NCBI RefSeq assembly: GCF_900090235.1
Contig: NZ_LT607750.1
Location: 5,447,001-5,511,000 of the forward strand
Direction of reading: 5' to 3'
Source: Micromonospora echinaurantiaca
Lineage (GTDB): Bacteria > Actinomycetota > Actinomycetes > Mycobacteriales > Micromonosporaceae
Length of the DNA: 64,000 nucleotides
In this document: piece by piece, positions 10,826 to 53,827 of the stretch
Position numbering within the stretch: position 1 is the first letter of the stretch
Layout: the number at the start of each line of letters is the position of its first letter
The notes under the pieces: generated by a model
What the model was told of the DNA's origin: nothing
What the model saw: only the letters and a program-made list of their open reading frames with translations
Databases searched by the model: none
Position numbers and translations under genes: made by a program

Positions 10826-11878
10826 ATGGGGGTCGCTGGTTCCGTCGTACCGGTTGGTCCGGGCTGGCAGCGCGCCCGGCGGGTCGCCCGCCTGGCGGCG
10901 ATCGGCACGGGCGCCACGGTGGCGGCCGCGGCGGCGACCACCGGGGTGCTGCTCGGCCAGGCCCGGCAGGCCCGGCGCACCATCCCGATGGCCGAGGCCC
11001 CGCCGCCGCGCTGCGACGGGGTCTACGGCGCCAAGCTGCCCGGCCCGCCGGTCACCGTGGTCATCCTCGGTGACTCCTCGGCGGCCGGCTACGGGGTGCA
11101 CCGGCGCCGGGAGACACCCGGCGCGCTGCTCGCCACCGGCCTGTCCCGCCGGTTGCAGCGGCCGGTCCGGCTGCACCGGTTCGCCGTGGTCGGCGCGATC
11201 TCCGCCGGGCTCCGGCACCAGGTGGAGGCGGCACTGGAGTGCCAGCCCGACATCGCGGTGATCCTGATCGGCGGCAACGACGTCACCAACCGCACCCCGC
11301 TCGGGCTCGCCGTGCGCTACCTGGTCGAGGCGGTCCGCGCGCTGCGCGCCGCCGGCTGCGAGGTGGTCGTCGGCACCTGCCCCGACCTGGGCGCCATCCG
11401 GCCGATCCAGCCGCCGCTGCGCTGGCTGGCCCGGCGCTGGAGCCGCCAGCTCGCCGCCGCGCAGACGGTGGCCGTGGTCGAGGCCGGCGGCTGGACGGTC
11501 TCCCTCGGCGATCTGCTCGGCCCCCGGTTCGCGGCCGAGCCCACCCGGATGTTCGCCTGGGACCGCTTCCACCCGTCCGCCGAGGGCTACGCGGTGGCCG
11601 CCGCCGCGCTGCTGCCGACCATCCTCTCCGCGCTGGGCGCCGGGCCGGAACGCCGGCCTGCGCCGGTGCGCGGAGAAGGCGTACGGTCGCTGCCGGAGGC
11701 CGCGCAGGAGGCGGCCCGGCACGCGGGCACCGAGGTCAGCGGCACCCAGGTCCGAGGCCGCGACCGAGGTCCCGCCGGACGGTGGGCGCAGCTGCGTCGG
11801 CGGGCGTTCTTCGGGGCCGGTGCCGTGCCGCAACCCGGTCGCGCCACCGACTCACCCACAGTGGAGGGACTGGCATGA
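10826..11878 (+). CDS. SGNH/GDSL hydrolase, membrane-anchored (paralogue 1)
   Basis: Esterase/lipase-like protein (350 aa). A hydrophobic N-terminal segment (about 21-46) serves as signal anchor. SGNH block I is GDSSAAG with Ser84; the third block is GGND near 152; the last block is DRFHPSAEGY near 247, with the catalytic Asp/His pair. A basic tail of about 75 residues follows the domain. The next real gene is a paralogue with the same blocks, and the two are linked by three tandem repeat mini-ORFs. The stop overlaps the first repeat start (ATGA at 11875). The substrate (acyl or acetyl ester) is unknown. Confidence 0.88.
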   Translation: MGVAGSVVPVGPGWQRARRVARLAAIGTGATVAAAAATTGVLLGQARQARRTIPMAEAPPPRCDGVYGAKLPGPPVTVVILGDSSAAGYGVHRRRETPGALLATGLSRRLQRPVRLHRFAVVGAISAGLRHQVEAALECQPDIAVILIGGNDVTNRTPLGLAVRYLVEAVRALRAAGCEVVVGTCPDLGAIRPIQPPLRWLARRWSRQLAAAQTVAVVEAGGWTVSLGDLLGPRFAAEPTRMFAWDRFHPSAEGYAVAAAALLPTILSALGAGPERRPAPVRGEGVRSLPEAAQEAARHAGTEVSGTQVRGRDRGPAGRWAQLRRRAFFGAGAVPQPGRATDSPTVEGLA

Positions 11879-11949
11879 GCGAGCGAGTCATCAGGCTCAG
11901 CGCGGGGGTGCCTCATGACGGCACGCAGCGCAGCGGAGTGCCGTCATGA
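11875..11949 (+). repeat. Family 1 coupled repeat, unit 1 (71-bp variant)
   Basis: This mini-ORF starts on the ATGA overlap with the first SGNH gene and stops on the ATGA of the next unit, 71 bases later. It is the 80-bp unit with 9 bases (three codons of the SERSERIV segment) missing, so the coding frame and the overlaps are kept. It contains a perfect 12-bp inverted repeat (arms 11913-11924 and 11938-11949) whose right arm ends in the next ATGA. Confidence 0.9.
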
Positions 11950-12029
11950 GCGAGCGCAGCGAGCGAATCGTCAGGCTCAGCGCGGGGGTGCCTCATGGCG
12001 GCACGCAGCGCAGCGGAGTGCCGTCATGA
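11946..12029 (+). repeat. Family 1 coupled repeat, unit 2 (80 bp)
   Basis: A full 80-bp unit encoding a 27-residue peptide (MSERSERIV ... TQRSGVPS). Start and stop both lie in ATGA overlaps with the flanking units. It is identical to unit 3 by eye, which suggests a recent tandem duplication. Confidence 0.9.
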
Positions 12030-12109
12030 GCGAGCGCAGCGAGCGAATCGTCAGGCTCAGCGCGGGGGTGCCTCATGGCGGCACGCAGCGCAGCGGAGTG
12101 CCGTCATGA
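12026..12109 (+). repeat. Family 1 coupled repeat, unit 3 (80 bp)
   Basis: Same sequence as unit 2. Its stop overlaps the ATG of the second SGNH hydrolase (ATGA at 12106-12109). The downstream gene itself begins ATG AGC GAG, like the repeat, as expected if insertion occurred at an RTGAGC target. Confidence 0.9.
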
Positions 12110-12909
12110 GCGAGCAGATGATCACCTCGGGGATCGCCCGCCGGCTGGGCCGGGCGGCGGCGCTCTCCCTGCTCGCCGGCACGGTGGGCGGCGCGGCCGT
12201 CCTCGCCGGCCAGGCCTTCCTCGCCCGCCACCGCCAGTACGCCCAACCCGAGCTGGGGCTCGCGCTGCGCGCCACGGTCGGGCGGTCCGGCGCCCCGCCG
12301 CTGCGGCTGGTGCTGCTCGGTGACTCGTCGGCCCTCGGGGTCGGCGTCGCCCGCCTCGACGACACCATCGGCGGCCAGCTGGCCAACCTGCTCGCCGAGG
12401 GCCCGTCCGGGCGGCAGGTCCACCTGTCCAGCGTCGGCGTCTCCGGCTCCCGCGCCACCGACCTGGCCACCCAGGTGGCCCGGGCACTGCTCGGTGAGCG
12501 GCCCGACGTGGCGGTGATCCTGATCGGCGCCAACGACGCCACCAGCCTGCGCCGGCCGGCCGACGCCGCCGCGTACCTCGGCGCGGCGGTGCACCGGCTG
12601 CGTGAGGCCCGGGTGGAGGTCGTCGTCGGCACCTGCCCCGATCTCGGCGCGGTACGCGCGATCGCGCCCCCGCTGCGGCAGCTCGTCGGCTGGTCCGGGC
12701 GGCGCATCGCCCGCGCCCAGACCGCCGCGGTGCTCGACGCCGGCGGCACGGTGGTCGACCTGGCCACCGAGACCGGGCCGGTGTTCCGGGCCGACGCCGG
12801 CACCCTCTGCCACGACGGTTTCCACCCCTCCGCCGACGGCTACCGGGTCTGGGCGCACGCCCTGCTGCCCGCCGTCGCCGCCGCGGCGGCCGTCGCCTCC
12901 CGCCACTGA
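12106..12909 (+). CDS. SGNH/GDSL hydrolase, membrane-anchored (paralogue 2)
   Basis: A 267-residue protein homologous to the gene before the repeats. N-terminal membrane anchor at about 17-40; block I GDSSALG with Ser74; GAND in block III; DGFHPSADGY near the C-terminus. It lacks the basic tail of paralogue 1. The start at 12106 is set by the ATGA overlap with the last repeat unit. An alternative frame through the repeats (from 11995) is open and in frame, so an extended N-terminus is formally possible but would consist only of repeat sequence. Confidence 0.88.
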   Translation: MSEQMITSGIARRLGRAAALSLLAGTVGGAAVLAGQAFLARHRQYAQPELGLALRATVGRSGAPPLRLVLLGDSSALGVGVARLDDTIGGQLANLLAEGPSGRQVHLSSVGVSGSRATDLATQVARALLGERPDVAVILIGANDATSLRRPADAAAYLGAAVHRLREARVEVVVGTCPDLGAVRAIAPPLRQLVGWSGRRIARAQTAAVLDAGGTVVDLATETGPVFRADAGTLCHDGFHPSADGYRVWAHALLPAVAAAAAVASRH

Positions 12910-20601: not shown

Positions 20602-21165
20602 TCACCTGCGGCGCAGCAGCCACCCCAGCAACGCGGTCACCCCGGCCGCCACCAGCAGACCAGCGACCGTCACCAGCTGGAATCCGCCGTCGCCGCCGGC
20701 CCCGGCGATCTCCGCCAACAGCACCCCGAGCACCGCGGCGGCGAGCACCACCGCGCCGGCCCGGATCAGCCAGCGGACCAGCACGTCCGGGTCGACCACC
20801 GCGTCGTACGGCAGCACCGCGGCGAGCGCGCAGAGGGTGTGGGTGAGGTACAGCACCGCCGCCACGGCGAGCAGCCGCCAGAGCGCGATCGGCCGGCCGT
20901 ACCCGTCGGTGGCCAGCAACCACCCGCCGACGGTGACCAGCGCCGCGAAGGTCGGCCAGACCCGGCGTGGCCCGACCGCGGGCAGCACCGCCACCAGCAC
21001 CAACGCGCCGAGCGGCCGCCCGGACAGCACCTGCGCCGGGTACGCCAGCACGAAGCCCACCAGCACGCTGAGGAAGATGCCGGCGCGTACCAGCAGCGGG
21101 GTGAGGCTGACCCGACCGGCCGCGCGCCGGACCGCCCGGACCCGTTCGGTGACCGCGTCGATCAT
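20602..21165 (-). CDS. Hypothetical membrane protein (187 aa), last gene of the MoxR/DUF58 operon
   Basis: About six hydrophobic segments and a basic C-terminus (GWLLRRR). No family recognised. The ATG at 21163-21165 is chosen because it overlaps the preceding mini-ORF stop as ATGA. The longer frame to 21255 would consist only of repeat-derived residues. The gene is connected to the DUF58 gene by three 59-bp coupled repeats plus one shorter unit, so it is probably translated by successive re-initiation. Confidence 0.75.
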   Translation of the reverse strand: MIDAVTERVRAVRRAAGRVSLTPLLVRAGIFLSVLVGFVLAYPAQVLSGRPLGALVLVAVLPAVGPRRVWPTFAALVTVGGWLLATDGYGRPIALWRLLAVAAVLYLTHTLCALAAVLPYDAVVDPDVLVRWLIRAGAVVLAAAVLGVLLAEIAGAGGDGGFQLVTVAGLLVAAGVTALLGWLLRRR

Positions 21166-21209
21166 CCGCGCCCGCTCCCGTCCGCCACCGCGAGCCGCCG
21201 CCCGCTCAC
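21162..21209 (-). repeat. Degenerate coupled unit (15 codons) before the last operon gene
   Basis: GTG AGC GGG CGG ... CGC GGA TGA. It starts on the GTGA overlap with the last 59-bp unit and stops on the ATGA overlap with the membrane-protein start, 44 bases later. Only its first bases resemble the repeat, so it is either a decayed repeat or the original gene junction. Confidence 0.7.
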
Positions 21210-21268
21210 CGGACCGCCTTCGTTCGCGACTGCGGGGCTCGCAAACCCGGCTCACTCCTCGCGCTCAC
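21206..21268 (-). repeat. 59-bp coupled repeat (family 2), unit 3
   Basis: A 20-codon mini-ORF (MSARSEPGLRA...), one base different from units 1 and 2 by eye (GCGGTC for GTGGTC near the 3' end). Start and stop lie in GTGA overlaps. It contains GTTTGCGA / TCGCGAAC arms that can form an 8-bp stem with one G-U pair. Confidence 0.9.
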
Positions 21269-21327
21269 CGGACCACCTTCGTTCGCGACTGCGGGGCTCG
21301 CAAACCCGGCTCACTCCTCGCGCTCAC
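21265..21327 (-). repeat. 59-bp coupled repeat (family 2), unit 2
   Basis: Identical to unit 1. It begins at GTG 21327 and ends at TGA 21265-21267, both in 4-base GTGA overlaps. Confidence 0.9.
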
Positions 21328-21386
21328 CGGACCACCTTCGTTCGCGACTGCGGGGCTCGCAAACCCGGCTCACTCCTCGCGCTCAC
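21324..21386 (-). repeat. 59-bp coupled repeat (family 2), unit 1
   Basis: The GTG at 21386-21384 overlaps the DUF58 stop (21383-21385) as GTGA. The unit encodes 20 residues (MSARSEPGLRA ... SRTKVVR). Its sequence is unrelated to the 80-bp family, but its construction is the same. Confidence 0.9.
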
Positions 21387-22786
21387 CGGGCACCCACCCG
21401 GGGAGCGGTGGCCAGCCGGGCCACGTCGCGCAGCACCTGGTCCAGGCTGCCCGCGCCGGCCCAACCCACCACCGGCACGCCGTGCTCGCGCAGCTGCCCG
21501 ATCATCGTGTCCCGGTCCAGCCGCCACAGCCGGTACGCCACCTCCGCCCAGCCGCGGTCCTTCGGCACCGGCAGGTCGGCCGGCAGGGTGTCCACCGCGA
21601 CCACGAACCGACCCGAGCGGGCCAGCCGGGCCAGCATCTGCGCCGACCGCTCGTCCAGCAGCGGGGTGAGCACCACCACCAGCGCGTCGGCGGCGAGCAG
21701 CTGCGGCCCGAACACCTGGTCGTACGGCTCGTGCGGGGAGTGCTCGGGGCGCACGTCGAGCAGCCACTCCAGCACGGTCAGGTACTGCCGGCGGCCGGTG
21801 GCCGGGCGCAGCCGGCGGGCGCTCGGGCCGTACTCGAGCAGCGAGACCCGGTCGCCCCGGTGCAGGTAGTGCTCGGCGATCGCGGCCGCCGCCCGGACCG
21901 TGGTGTCCAGCACCGAGGCGGCGCCGTCGACGCCACCGGAGCGGCCCGCCTCGGCGAGCACGTCGAGCAGGACGACCACCTCCGCGTCCCGGTCGGACAG
22001 GGTGGCCGCCACGTGCAGTTGCCGGGCCCGCAGCGAGACCCGCCAGTCGATGCGGCGCAGCCGGTCACCGGGCGCGAAGACGCGCACCCCGGCCAGCTCG
22101 CCGCCCTCGCCGGGCCGGCGCGAGTGGTGCGCGCCGACCAGGCCGGCGGCCCGGGGCATCGCCTCGACCGCCTCGAACGGCTCGGTCTTCGGGTAGACCC
22201 GGGTGCGGACCGGTTCGGTGATCACCGCGCGGGAGACGAGCAGGCCCTGCGCGGCGGCGACCCGCGCTCCGGCCGGGCCGACCGGGTGTCGCCCCCAGCG
22301 CAGCGCCCGACCGGCGAGCTCCAGGTCGACCGCGGTGGCGGTGGCGAGCGAGGTGACGAACGGGCGGTCGGCCACCGCCGGGGCACCCGGCCCGGGGGCG
22401 GTGGCGATCGCGGCGCCGGCGATGCTGGCCCGCTCGATGCGCAGCCAGGGGGAGACCCGGGCGCGGACCACCGTCACGTCGTAGTCCACCCTGTCCGGGT
22501 TGCCGACGGTGACCGTGCCGACGACCTCGCCCCCCTCGACCAGGTGGTCGTCCCCGCCGGCGATCCACACCTGGGGCAGCCCGGTCGGCCGGCGGTGCAG
22601 CGCGTACGCCGTGCCGAGCGCGATCGGCGCGGCCAGCACGATCAGGTCGACCCGGCCGAGCAGCACCGCCGCGATCAGCAGCAGGCCGGTCAGCAGCACC
22701 GCCCGGCCGAGCGCCCAGGTGGGCACCCAGCCGGGCGACGGCTCCGGCTCACCCGCGTCGACGCGCGGCACCGTGGACCTGGCCAT
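21383..22786 (-). CDS. DUF58 domain-containing protein (vWA-like)
   Basis: A 467-residue protein with two N-terminal membrane helices (about 28-60) and a C-terminal half with the DUF58 signature GDRLRRIDWRVSLRARQLHV followed by the vWA-like fold (EVVVLLDVLAEAG). DUF58 proteins are found almost always beside MoxR ATPases and are thought to act in metal insertion or in assembly at the membrane. The ATG overlaps the MoxR stop (TGATG), and its own stop overlaps the first 59-bp repeat. Confidence 0.9.
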   Translation of the reverse strand: MARSTVPRVDAGEPEPSPGWVPTWALGRAVLLTGLLLIAAVLLGRVDLIVLAAPIALGTAYALHRRPTGLPQVWIAGGDDHLVEGGEVVGTVTVGNPDRVDYDVTVVRARVSPWLRIERASIAGAAIATAPGPGAPAVADRPFVTSLATATAVDLELAGRALRWGRHPVGPAGARVAAAQGLLVSRAVITEPVRTRVYPKTEPFEAVEAMPRAAGLVGAHHSRRPGEGGELAGVRVFAPGDRLRRIDWRVSLRARQLHVAATLSDRDAEVVVLLDVLAEAGRSGGVDGAASVLDTTVRAAAAIAEHYLHRGDRVSLLEYGPSARRLRPATGRRQYLTVLEWLLDVRPEHSPHEPYDQVFGPQLLAADALVVVLTPLLDERSAQMLARLARSGRFVVAVDTLPADLPVPKDRGWAEVAYRLWRLDRDTMIGQLREHGVPVVGWAGAGSLDQVLRDVARLATAPRVGAR

Positions 22787-23793: not shown

Positions 23794-24380
23794 CAGATGC
23801 TCTCCAGTTCGGCGACGATCGCCGCGAGGTCACGCGGCGACGGGGTACGGCGGGGCGGGGTCTCCAGGAACGTCCACAGCCGCTCGCCCAGCAGGGCGCG
23901 GGCCCGGGCCGGATCCGACTCGCGGGTCACGCCGTGCCGCTGGCGCAGCCGCTCGTCGGCCAGCTCACCGAGCCGGGGCAGGATCACCTTGGTGAACCGT
24001 TCCGGCCGGGTGGCGGACCAGTCCAGCGGCACCTCCCAGCCGTTGATCGCGGTCCGCAGTGCGTCCCGGGCGCCCCAGTTCCAGACGCCGTCGTCCACGC
24101 CGACGGAGGCCCGGGGTCCGGCGCCCGGCAGCGGCGGCGGGGGCGTCAGCGCGGCGACGATCCGGCGCACCGCGAAGAGCGCGAGCACCCCGGCGACCAG
24201 GATCAGCAGGGAGACCCGCAGGCCGACCGCGCGCAGCCCGGCGACCAGCACGACCACCACCGCCGCCATGCCGGCCAGGGTGCGCAGCACCTGCCCGACC
24301 CGGCCGCCCCGGTCCCGCTCGTCGGCCCGGGGCCGCTCCTCCTCGAAGCTGAGCAGGTCGTCGATGCTGGTGCTGCTCAT
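23793..24380 (-). CDS. Hypothetical membrane protein of the MoxR operon (195 aa)
   Basis: Acidic N-terminus (SSTSIDDLLSFEEE), two close hydrophobic segments (about 32-72), then a soluble domain of about 115 residues. No family recognised. Its place between the DUF4129 and MoxR genes, with overlaps on both sides, marks it as a component of the same membrane system. Confidence 0.8.
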   Translation of the reverse strand: MSSTSIDDLLSFEEERPRADERDRGGRVGQVLRTLAGMAAVVVVLVAGLRAVGLRVSLLILVAGVLALFAVRRIVAALTPPPPLPGAGPRASVGVDDGVWNWGARDALRTAINGWEVPLDWSATRPERFTKVILPRLGELADERLRQRHGVTRESDPARARALLGERLWTFLETPPRRTPSPRDLAAIVAELESI

Positions 24381-34594: not shown

Positions 34595-35475
34595 CCGCGG
34601 CGACCGGCGCCGGCGCCCGCTTCGTGCCCGGGGCGGGGCACGCCGGGCCGCCCGCGCCGGACGACCCGGCGCTGCTGGTGGCCGGCCGGAAGCTGCTGGT
34701 CGGCGCGGACGGGCGGTTCCTCCGGATCGCCGACCTGCCCGCCGGCACCGACTGGATGCCGCTCGGCACGCTCGACGGCGTCCCCGTCTGGGGCGCCGCC
34801 CGGCCGGCCGAGCACACCGGCGATCGTCCGGGCGGTGGCGAGGACGGCACCGGGCACCCGGGCCGCTGGTTGAGCTGGCGGGCGCTCGCCGCCGAGGTGC
34901 CGGAGCCGCTGGCCGCGCTGGCCGGGCGGGCCCTGCAGGTGGTCACCTGGCGGCACGCCCACCGCTGGTGCGGCGCCTGCCGGGCCGAACTGGCCGACGT
35001 GCCGGGCGAGTCGGCCCGGCGCTGCCCCGACTGCGACCTGTACGTGCCGATGCAGCTCTCCCCGGCGGTGCTGGTGGCGATCACCCGCCCCGGTCCGGCC
35101 GGCCGCCCCGACGAGCTGCTCCTGGTCCGCCACTCGTACGGGCCGACCGAGCTGTGGGCGCTGGTCGCCGGCTTCGTCGAGGCCGGCGAGACGCTGGAGG
35201 CGGCGGCGCACCGGGAGGTCGGCGAGGAGGTCGGGCTGGCCCTCGACCGGCTGACCTACTTCGGCAGCCAGCCGTGGGCGATGTCCGGCCCCGGGGTGCT
35301 GCTCGCCGGCTTCACCGCCACCGCCGCCGACCCGACCGCCGAGCCGGTCATCGACGGGCGGGAGCTGACGCAGGCGCGCTGGTTTCCGCTGGACGCGCTG
35401 CCGGCGGAGCTGCCGCCGGCGTACTCCATCTCGCGCTGGCTGATCGACGCCACGGTGACCGCGGCCCGGGGCTGA
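34591..35475 (+). CDS. nudC: NAD(+) diphosphatase / NADH pyrophosphatase (NudC-like)
   Basis: A 294-residue Nudix hydrolase that cleaves NAD(H), and in some bacteria NAD-capped RNA, to NMN and AMP. The zinc ribbon Cys127, Cys130, Cys145, Cys148 is intact. The Nudix box occupies 194-216 (GFVEAGETLEAAAHREVGEE). The NudC-specific SQPWPFPxS motif reads SQPWAMSGP at 226-234, so it is altered after the Trp. The GTG start overlaps the lipoprotein stop. Confidence 0.9.
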   Translation: MTAATGAGARFVPGAGHAGPPAPDDPALLVAGRKLLVGADGRFLRIADLPAGTDWMPLGTLDGVPVWGAARPAEHTGDRPGGGEDGTGHPGRWLSWRALAAEVPEPLAALAGRALQVVTWRHAHRWCGACRAELADVPGESARRCPDCDLYVPMQLSPAVLVAITRPGPAGRPDELLLVRHSYGPTELWALVAGFVEAGETLEAAAHREVGEEVGLALDRLTYFGSQPWAMSGPGVLLAGFTATAADPTAEPVIDGRELTQARWFPLDALPAELPPAYSISRWLIDATVTAARG

Positions 35476-35576
35476 CCGGCGACGGACGCCGCCCGGAGCC
35501 GGGCCGGGCTGACCGGCGACGGCCGTTGGCGCGACCGCGCGGGGCTGACCGGCGACGGGCGCCGCCCGGAGCCGGG
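35469..35576 (+). repeat. Direct repeats at the nudC stop codon
   Basis: GGGCTGACCGGCGACGG occurs three times (from about 35469, 35507 and 35542). The first and third copies extend over 35 bases, differing at about one position. The first copy includes the nudC stop codon, so the repeat looks like a duplicated 3' end of the gene. Confidence 0.7.
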
Positions 35577-39088: not shown

Positions 39089-39192
39089 CCGTACAGCGCG
39101 GCGGCCGGTCCCAGGCCCGTACAGCGCGGCGGCCGGTCCCAGGCCCGTACAGCGCGGCGGCCGGTCCCAGGCCCGTGCAGCGCGGCGGCCGG
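39089..39192. repeat. 28-bp tandem repeat, 3.7 copies
   Basis: The unit CCGTACAGCGCGGCGGCC... is repeated at 39089, 39117, 39145 and (partial, one change) 39173. The first three copies are identical by eye. It lies between mfd and the lipoprotein gene, outside coding sequence, and is a candidate variable-number locus. Confidence 0.9.
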
Positions 39193-53558: not shown

Positions 53559-53777
53559 ATGGCAGCGATGACTGACGAGAAGAACGACGAGCGGCTCAGC
53601 TACGAGCAGGCCCGCGCCGAACTGGCGTCGGTGGTCGAGCGGCTGGAGGCCGGCGGCACCTCGCTGGAGGAGTCGCTGGCGCTCTGGGAGCGCGGCGAGG
53701 CGCTCGCGGTGATCTGCCAGCGCTGGCTCGACGGCGCCCGGGCCCGTATCGACGCCGCCCGCCAGCCGGCCGACTGA
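53559..53777 (+). CDS. xseB: Exodeoxyribonuclease VII small subunit
   Basis: A 72-residue helical subunit that binds XseA. The family pattern [37 protein letters not shown] is complete. ATG 53568 ([10 protein letters not shown]) is a good alternative start, with GGTGGG upstream. Confidence 0.95.
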
Positions 53778-53827
53778 CCGTCACACCCGCCGGCTGAGCG
53801 CCACACCCGCCGGCTGAGCGGCACGCC

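Follow-up and report, generated by a model that had tools for sequence, protein, structure and literature searches.

A 59-bp repeat before start codons in Micromonospora that probably is a small mobile element of MIRU type

A 59-bp repeat of Micromonospora is, with a probability that we put at about 80%, a small mobile element of MIRU type that resides before start codons. In nearly all copies the unit stands immediately 5' of a DTGA start codon in the sense of transcription, and it supplies its own GTG start and mini-ORF, the closing TGA of which overlaps the next start. The unit also closes both other frames with TGAs (+1 and +14), which immediately end any upstream gene that enters one of them. 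Orthologous sites were found both empty and occupied, at the junction behind a DUF58 gene and before a gene with cNMP-binding and HATPase_c domains, indicating apparent mobility; together with a match between the flank of an array and the tail of its last unit, this suggests transposition at ribosome-binding sites.

The family was described from an array in the window, by which we mean the whole 64,000-nucleotide stretch analysed (positions 5447001-5511000 of a 7.2-Mb single-contig genome, Micromonospora echinaurantiaca). The array lies on the minus strand, with the following features.

21383..22786, minus strand: DUF58 gene, upstream of the array; its stop, the TGA at 21385-21383, overlaps unit 1's GTG start
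21328..21386, minus strand: 59-bp unit 1, subfamily A59; GTG start, 20-aa mini-ORF, Shine-Dalgarno-like GAAGG close to its end
21269..21327, minus strand: 59-bp unit 2; same sequence as unit 1
21210..21268, minus strand: 59-bp unit 3; a single T-to-C change, GAAGGTGG to GAAGGCGG
21166..21209, minus strand: 44-nt unit, probably decayed, with a 15-aa mini-ORF
20602..21165, minus strand: 187-aa downstream gene; its ATG at 21165 overlaps the stop of the last mini-ORF (ATGA)

An earlier note on this DNA had reported three 59-bp units, two of them identical and one with a single change, followed by a 44-nt unit, and both the coordinates and Tandem Repeats Finder (21203-21389, period 59, 3.2 copies, 99% matches) agree with that description. 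Three such units with at most one change rule out chance; the 23-nt unit start occurred three times in the window at up to three mismatches and in none of 100 dinucleotide shuffles. The boundaries are GTGA or ATGA at each minus-strand junction, as the note had stated, and every 59-bp unit does encode a 20-residue mini-ORF: mini-ORFs of 20, 20, 20 and then 15 aa, joined by 4-nt overlaps, link the DUF58 stop to the 187-aa gene. The upstream gene was rightly named, its product matching Pfam PF01882 (DUF58). The downstream gene, called a membrane-protein gene, has a fittingly hydrophobic product as judged by eye, but this product matched nothing in Pfam at E 0.001. In this operon, three further junctions were checked and are ATGA or TGATG overlaps, and the array thus keeps an overlapping operon overlapping. 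Further tandem repeats in the window were located at 35469-35576 (36 bp), 39089-39192 (28 bp) and 53769-53824 (20 bp).

A two-unit query had 41 BLAST matches in the own genome, and an 18-nt start pattern allowing two mismatches had 52, versus 2 for the reversed control. We placed 39 loci, with one to four anchor matches each and with a few decayed or chance matches among them. Coding frames were called by a three-periodic Markov model, for which 36 long ORFs from the window served as training set. For each locus we recorded the position of the upstream stop, and whether reading from the first unit start arrives at a gene via 4-nt or 1-nt overlaps or in frame. The upstream stop fell at the TGA of the first GTGA (+1) in 26/39 loci and at the second TGA (+14) in 3/39, the best downstream coding frame shared the strand of the unit in 36/39, and the downstream gene was reached in 33/39, plain in-frame fusion accounting for three of these 33 (L025, L031 and L042). 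The chain was broken in the remaining six (L014, L015, L032, L033, L038 and L043), which counts against the mobile-element reading.

Sixty loci were also hand-picked, one per cluster, from part of the matches in five other genomes of the genus. A downstream gene on the same strand was reached in 59 of them, eight times by in-frame fusion. Upstream stops, called by the model and perhaps wrong in some cases, lay at +1 in 39/60 loci and at +14 in 2/60. Of the other 19, with a stop at neither position, 18 nonetheless reach the gene, indicating that the start codon is the anchor and that gene/gene overlap is not strictly needed. The coupled mini-ORF design proposed in the earlier note hence extends across the genome and the genus, and the unit is not mostly intergenic or out of frame elsewhere. 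As to the stop/start architecture, the DTGA chain is real, but its anchor is the start codon rather than a strict overlap of two genes. Where units are in frame with the downstream gene (the three own loci named above and the eight from other genomes), MSARSE-type N-terminal extensions, whether false or real, may be present in predicted proteins, and gene callers may extend proteins into units.

The start pattern (at most one mismatch) was detected in 151/151 Micromonospora genomes, the own genome included, with a reversed-pattern control near zero. Across the family it was present in 53/121 genomes and 26/44 genera sampled, some with one match only, which may be chance. Across the class it was present in 7/197 genomes, namely three Micromonospora and four with one single-mismatch match each, so that class-wide matches outside the genus are about at the level of the reversed control. 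The 18-nt unit pattern (at most one mismatch) had no match in 14 genomes of the same order from another family.

To follow one junction across species, we fetched the best 80 of 159 relatives from a search with the DUF58 protein as named loci, one genome per species. These best 80 are from Micromonospora and close genera, the nearest, Micromonospora sp. C28SCA-DRY-2, being 97% identical over the best segment. An unbroken 4-nt DTGA overlap chain runs from the DUF58 stop to the downstream gene in 78/79 readable loci (L087, with too short a contig, was left out, and L144 was counted despite an odd DUF58 frame); the exception is L120, with a TAG/GTG arrangement. The chain contains no mini-ORF in 19 loci, one in 49, two in 6 and three in 4, with lengths of 5-39 aa. 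Short gaps had phase 2 in 24/24 loci with a downstream frame readable independently of start choice, and empty junctions had phase 0 in 18/18 readable loci. Such conservation of phase is comparative evidence for selection on the coupling by stop/start overlap.

The presence of units at this junction varies between species. Junction states, assigned by hand in 80 rows including the window, were empty in 20, A59 in 3, B56 in 10, C59 in 22 and short in 25. The DUF58 gene tree, in which many branches are weak, requires at least 27 changes among these five states; with short-gap rows left out (55 rows kept), switches between empty and unit-bearing number at least 12. A single 59-bp unit, present in L090 and absent from its near neighbour L098, is the difference between their junctions. 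L114, with one unit, and L103, with none, also neighbour each other on the tree, and here the first codons of the gene differ too. Units have been gained, lost and decayed at this junction while the overlap chain stays. The Salinispora loci L157 and L159 have local duplications of other sequence at the junction, with the overlap chain intact. If the repeats were instead regulatory parts of the host, taken up at particular junctions to adjust the ratio in which neighbouring genes are translated, and mobile only secondarily, the phase kept across the sampled species and the Shine-Dalgarno-like tail of most units would be accounted for; the frequent switching between species and the 20 empty rows argue against this explanation, which we consider unlikely.

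The clearest occupied/empty site is the start of the gene with cNMP-binding and HATPase_c domains (Pfam), for which 17 of 30 loci were inspected. Eleven of the 17 are without the unit and have tacctggaggcNca (10 loci) or tacctggagacgca (L268) directly before DTGA, and L267 has a different short gap. The other five bear a unit, the last 9 nt of which are GGAGGCCCA in L254, L264 and L269. The unit of L266 ends in GGAGGCACA, and its upstream copy carries the identical variant; that of L255 ends in GGAAGCTCA, two bases off its own upstream copy and one off the empty neighbour L257. The five unit-bearing orthologs may share insertion events and are not to be read as five counted insertions. GGAGGCCCA itself resembles ordinary element tails, with agreement at 7 or more of 9 positions in 10/46 tails and at 8 or more in 3/46, one of which is the cNMP/HATPase_c locus itself.

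Two other junctions were compared. Before purE (AIR carboxylase, PF00731), where the upstream gene is purK-like by eye, 13 of 30 loci are joined directly, 7 via mini-ORFs and 6 by in-frame extension, and 4 are unchained as coded, two of these (L180 and L191) being TGATG overlaps. The overlap-chain rule is thus strong but not absolute, with looser coupling at purE. In L009 and L164, the purK-like gene before purE reads past the unit's first TGA, which lies in a different frame, and ends at the second (+14), which gives its protein a short C-terminal tail. The junction before the DLLAFEEE gene, the counterpart of which starts at 24380 in the operon of the window, has 59-bp units in L284 and arrays like the 80-bp family in L304 and L306, so both repeat families use one site. 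Eleven of the 25 loci inspected there (of 29 returned) had no motif match, and no neighbour sharing the flank was found among the 25, leaving this junction without a clean comparison.

The ends of the units resemble ribosome-binding sites. In a set of 39 unit ends (36 distinct) from 27/39 own loci, with ends set by hand, a Shine-Dalgarno 4-mer occurred within the last 16 to 5 nt of 28/36 distinct units, versus 3/36 for mid-unit stretches, and the anti-Shine-Dalgarno pairing energy of the tails was modestly better than that of shuffled tails (-8.2 vs -6.4, s.d. 2.6). The bases before an array also match the end of its last unit. With hand-set ends at 33/39 own loci, the matching run was 41 vs 21.2 in pairing shuffles (p=0.00085), and at the 30 of 60 hand-picked loci from other genomes that were paired it was 58 vs 17.8, a value reached in 0/20000 shuffles. 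When a single parsing rule was applied, 46/94 loci were kept (17/34 own and 29/60 others, the remainder failing the automatic parse); this set, which overlaps both earlier ones, gave 87 vs 25.7 (0/5000 shuffles), with no comparable excess when the match was shifted by 1-2 nt. The signal persisted (64 vs 19.1, 0/10000 shuffles) in the 34 loci left after 12 of the 46 were dropped as similar, some of them on weak k-mer likeness.

By position, the excess was clear only at -4 to -1 in the 46 loci, and at -3 to -1 after similar loci were removed. In the 13/46 loci with agreeing last three nucleotides, agreement extended to -9 (48/78 vs 33.4, p=0.0011) and was at control level at -10; flank and tail were equal at 8 or more of 9 nt in 4/46 loci, with 0.3 expected from cross pairs. 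The length of 9 nt rests on this 13-locus subset, on the count of near-identical pairs in the 46 loci and on one site. At loci with an ATGA gene the unit started with GTGA in 7/7 cases (of the 46 parsed, a set in which only GTGA units were parsed), and the first base of the element appears to belong to the element itself. ATGA units occur elsewhere, for example in L105 and L113.

The simplest reading of these matches is an insert, directly before the start codon, of an element of some 50 bp together with as many as 9 bp copied from the target, and it is possible that the likeness instead comes from insertion guided by likeness or from later gene conversion. A broader form of the latter idea dispenses with a transposase: the repeats would spread through local duplication or slippage, through gene conversion, or through recombination guided by homology between similar ribosome-binding sites, and the flank/tail likeness would reflect site choice or conversion. 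Identical units in tandem, the Salinispora duplications and the frequent resemblance of element tails to ribosome-binding sites are consistent with this, but the same unit sits at dispersed loci of the own genome, empty and one-unit neighbours share one junction, and the tails track the local flank despite their diversity (32 distinct last-5 strings in 46 loci). We therefore hold such a spread to be improbable, to about the same degree as the regulatory explanation.

The subfamilies bear on whether the peptide matters. Type A reads the core TTGCGAGCCCCGCAGTCGCGAAC as LRAPQSRT, and types B and C read it as LASPAVAN or RSPAVAN; relative to type A, the B type has 5 nt missing before the core and 2 extra after it. 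One DNA core is thus read in two frames, with compensating indels that restore the phase, which indicates that the phase is conserved and not the peptide. Among the 39 unit ends, unit length modulo 3 was 2 in 32, 0 in six and 1 in one, and several of the lengths other than 2 go with in-frame fusion to the next unit or gene. In the type A core (12 distinct units), 16 synonymous and 10 nonsynonymous-class substitutions were counted, against 37 and 98 possible changes; this lean, to which a few sites contribute most, is a hint of peptide constraint and speaks against this reading. The units of the window encode the peptide MSARSEPGLRA... of the earlier note, but it is not conserved across subfamilies, so the pattern is better explained by mobility together with selection on phase than by selection for a peptide. 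A small peptide under selection (MSARSEPGLRAPQSR...), encoded by the repeats and raised in dose by the array, would fit the open mini-ORFs of most copies and the synonymous lean of type A, which lends it weak support; given the different frames of subfamilies A and B/C and the mini-ORFs of 5-15 aa that persist at the DUF58 junction in other species, we regard it as very improbable.

A structured RNA or a REP/palindromic element was rejected and has hardly any probability left. Column-shuffled alignments never fold as well as the real one (0/100, a weak control), and a CGCGA/TCGCG pair can be seen by eye within the unit. Against this, the window unit folds no better than 200 dinucleotide shuffles (z=+0.46), Rfam gave no match up to E 1 in 20900-21600, and the unit has one 6-nt palindrome only.

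The window also contains an 80-bp family, in an array (11875-12115) with a mini-ORF chain of 24, 27 and 27 aa leading into a 267-aa gene. This family has 67 BLAST matches genome-wide, including a nine-unit array at L049. Of 39 loci fetched, nine lacked a core match within the scanned part, and a DTGAG start was missing from two core matches; in the 30 arrays analysed the gene was reached in 28 and the upstream stop lay at +1 in 22. Like the 59-bp family it shows a DTGA chain and, by eye, a GGAG/GAGG-like tail. It differs in that its units are mostly 80 bp, its mini-ORF mostly 27 aa and its tail nearly invariant, and in that its flank/tail signal is weak (run test 125/10000, last-5 test 719/10000). 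The two families had been called unrelated, which is correct for the window's own 59-bp unit (6 nt in common with the 80-bp unit, equalled in 287/300 shuffles) but not for a GCAGCG-type 59-bp unit of another species (L086), in which a block of 17 nt is identical to part of the 80-bp unit (0/300 shuffles), so the two families may have parts in common.

For the mobile element that we favour, we propose that a transposase-like activity, which we infer along with its target recognition, would place the element directly ahead of a start codon and copy a few target bases, at least 3 nt and perhaps the 9 nt of a Shine-Dalgarno sequence plus spacer. Of the two resulting ribosome-binding sites, one would serve the mini-ORF and the other the gene. 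If the mini-ORF is translated, termination-reinitiation would hand the ribosomes on, translation of the gene would survive, and the insertion would be tolerated, presumably with no host function of the element. Each insertion would rebuild a similar site at the 3' end, favouring tandem arrays, to which slippage or unequal exchange may add further units, and selection would later hold the phase while the sequence decays. It is conceivable, and in our view rather unlikely, that actinobacteria harbour a class of mini-transposons homing to ribosome-binding sites, with MIRUs and the 59-bp and 80-bp families as members with different bodies; their machinery would recognise the Shine-Dalgarno/start-codon site, perhaps via the translated mRNA and not just via DNA, and copy about 9 bp, making each insertion a fresh target and a translational relay. 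The tandem copies could serve as typing markers.

Among known systems, REP/BIME palindromic repeats are short, multi-copy and located outside the main genes. The 59-bp family is likewise short, multi-copy and outside the main genes; unlike REP/BIME, its unit shows no special folding or stable palindromic hairpin, and it carries in-phase mini-ORFs. MITEs and non-autonomous IS derivatives are small, dispersed, devoid of their own transposase and associated with target duplications. The 59-bp family is similarly small and dispersed, with no transposase of its own; its flank/tail match beyond chance may stem from a target duplication, from homology-guided insertion or from gene conversion. The unit is without terminal inverted repeats of at least 6 nt (apart from the palindrome, no inverted pair of that length was found within it) and its placement at start codons is strict.

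The closest comparison is with MIRUs. Supply et al. (1997) reportedly proposed that these insert into DTGA sites, and to our knowledge, how they move is still open. A second, genus-wide family obeys an identical placement rule, its sites are both filled and vacant among about 80 sampled species, and its tails track the local flank, all of which makes this question testable. No start-codon repeats of such a kind outside mycobacteria were found among the matches listed for open-licence papers (titles and abstract starts), which is no proof of absence. In one review, MIRUs are seemingly mobile repeats at start codons with an internal ORF coupled at -4, likely doing little harm to the gene, and their insertion is thought to be tolerated because the coupling limits damage (PMC12548453). 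They are given as 40-100 bp long, at 41 places in M. tuberculosis H37Rv, in another paper (PMC2734929). By its architecture, the 59-bp element would work like a MIRU, a likeness of design that need not mean common descent. Unlike MIRUs, the family occurs in Micromonosporaceae, has mostly 56- and 59-bp units and subfamilies in two frames, and shows the flank/tail likeness found here. Both consist of short repeats, dispersed and in tandem, that stand at start codons in the orientation of the downstream gene, carry an ORF coupled at -4 (DTGA), and leave occupied and empty sites suggestive of mobility.
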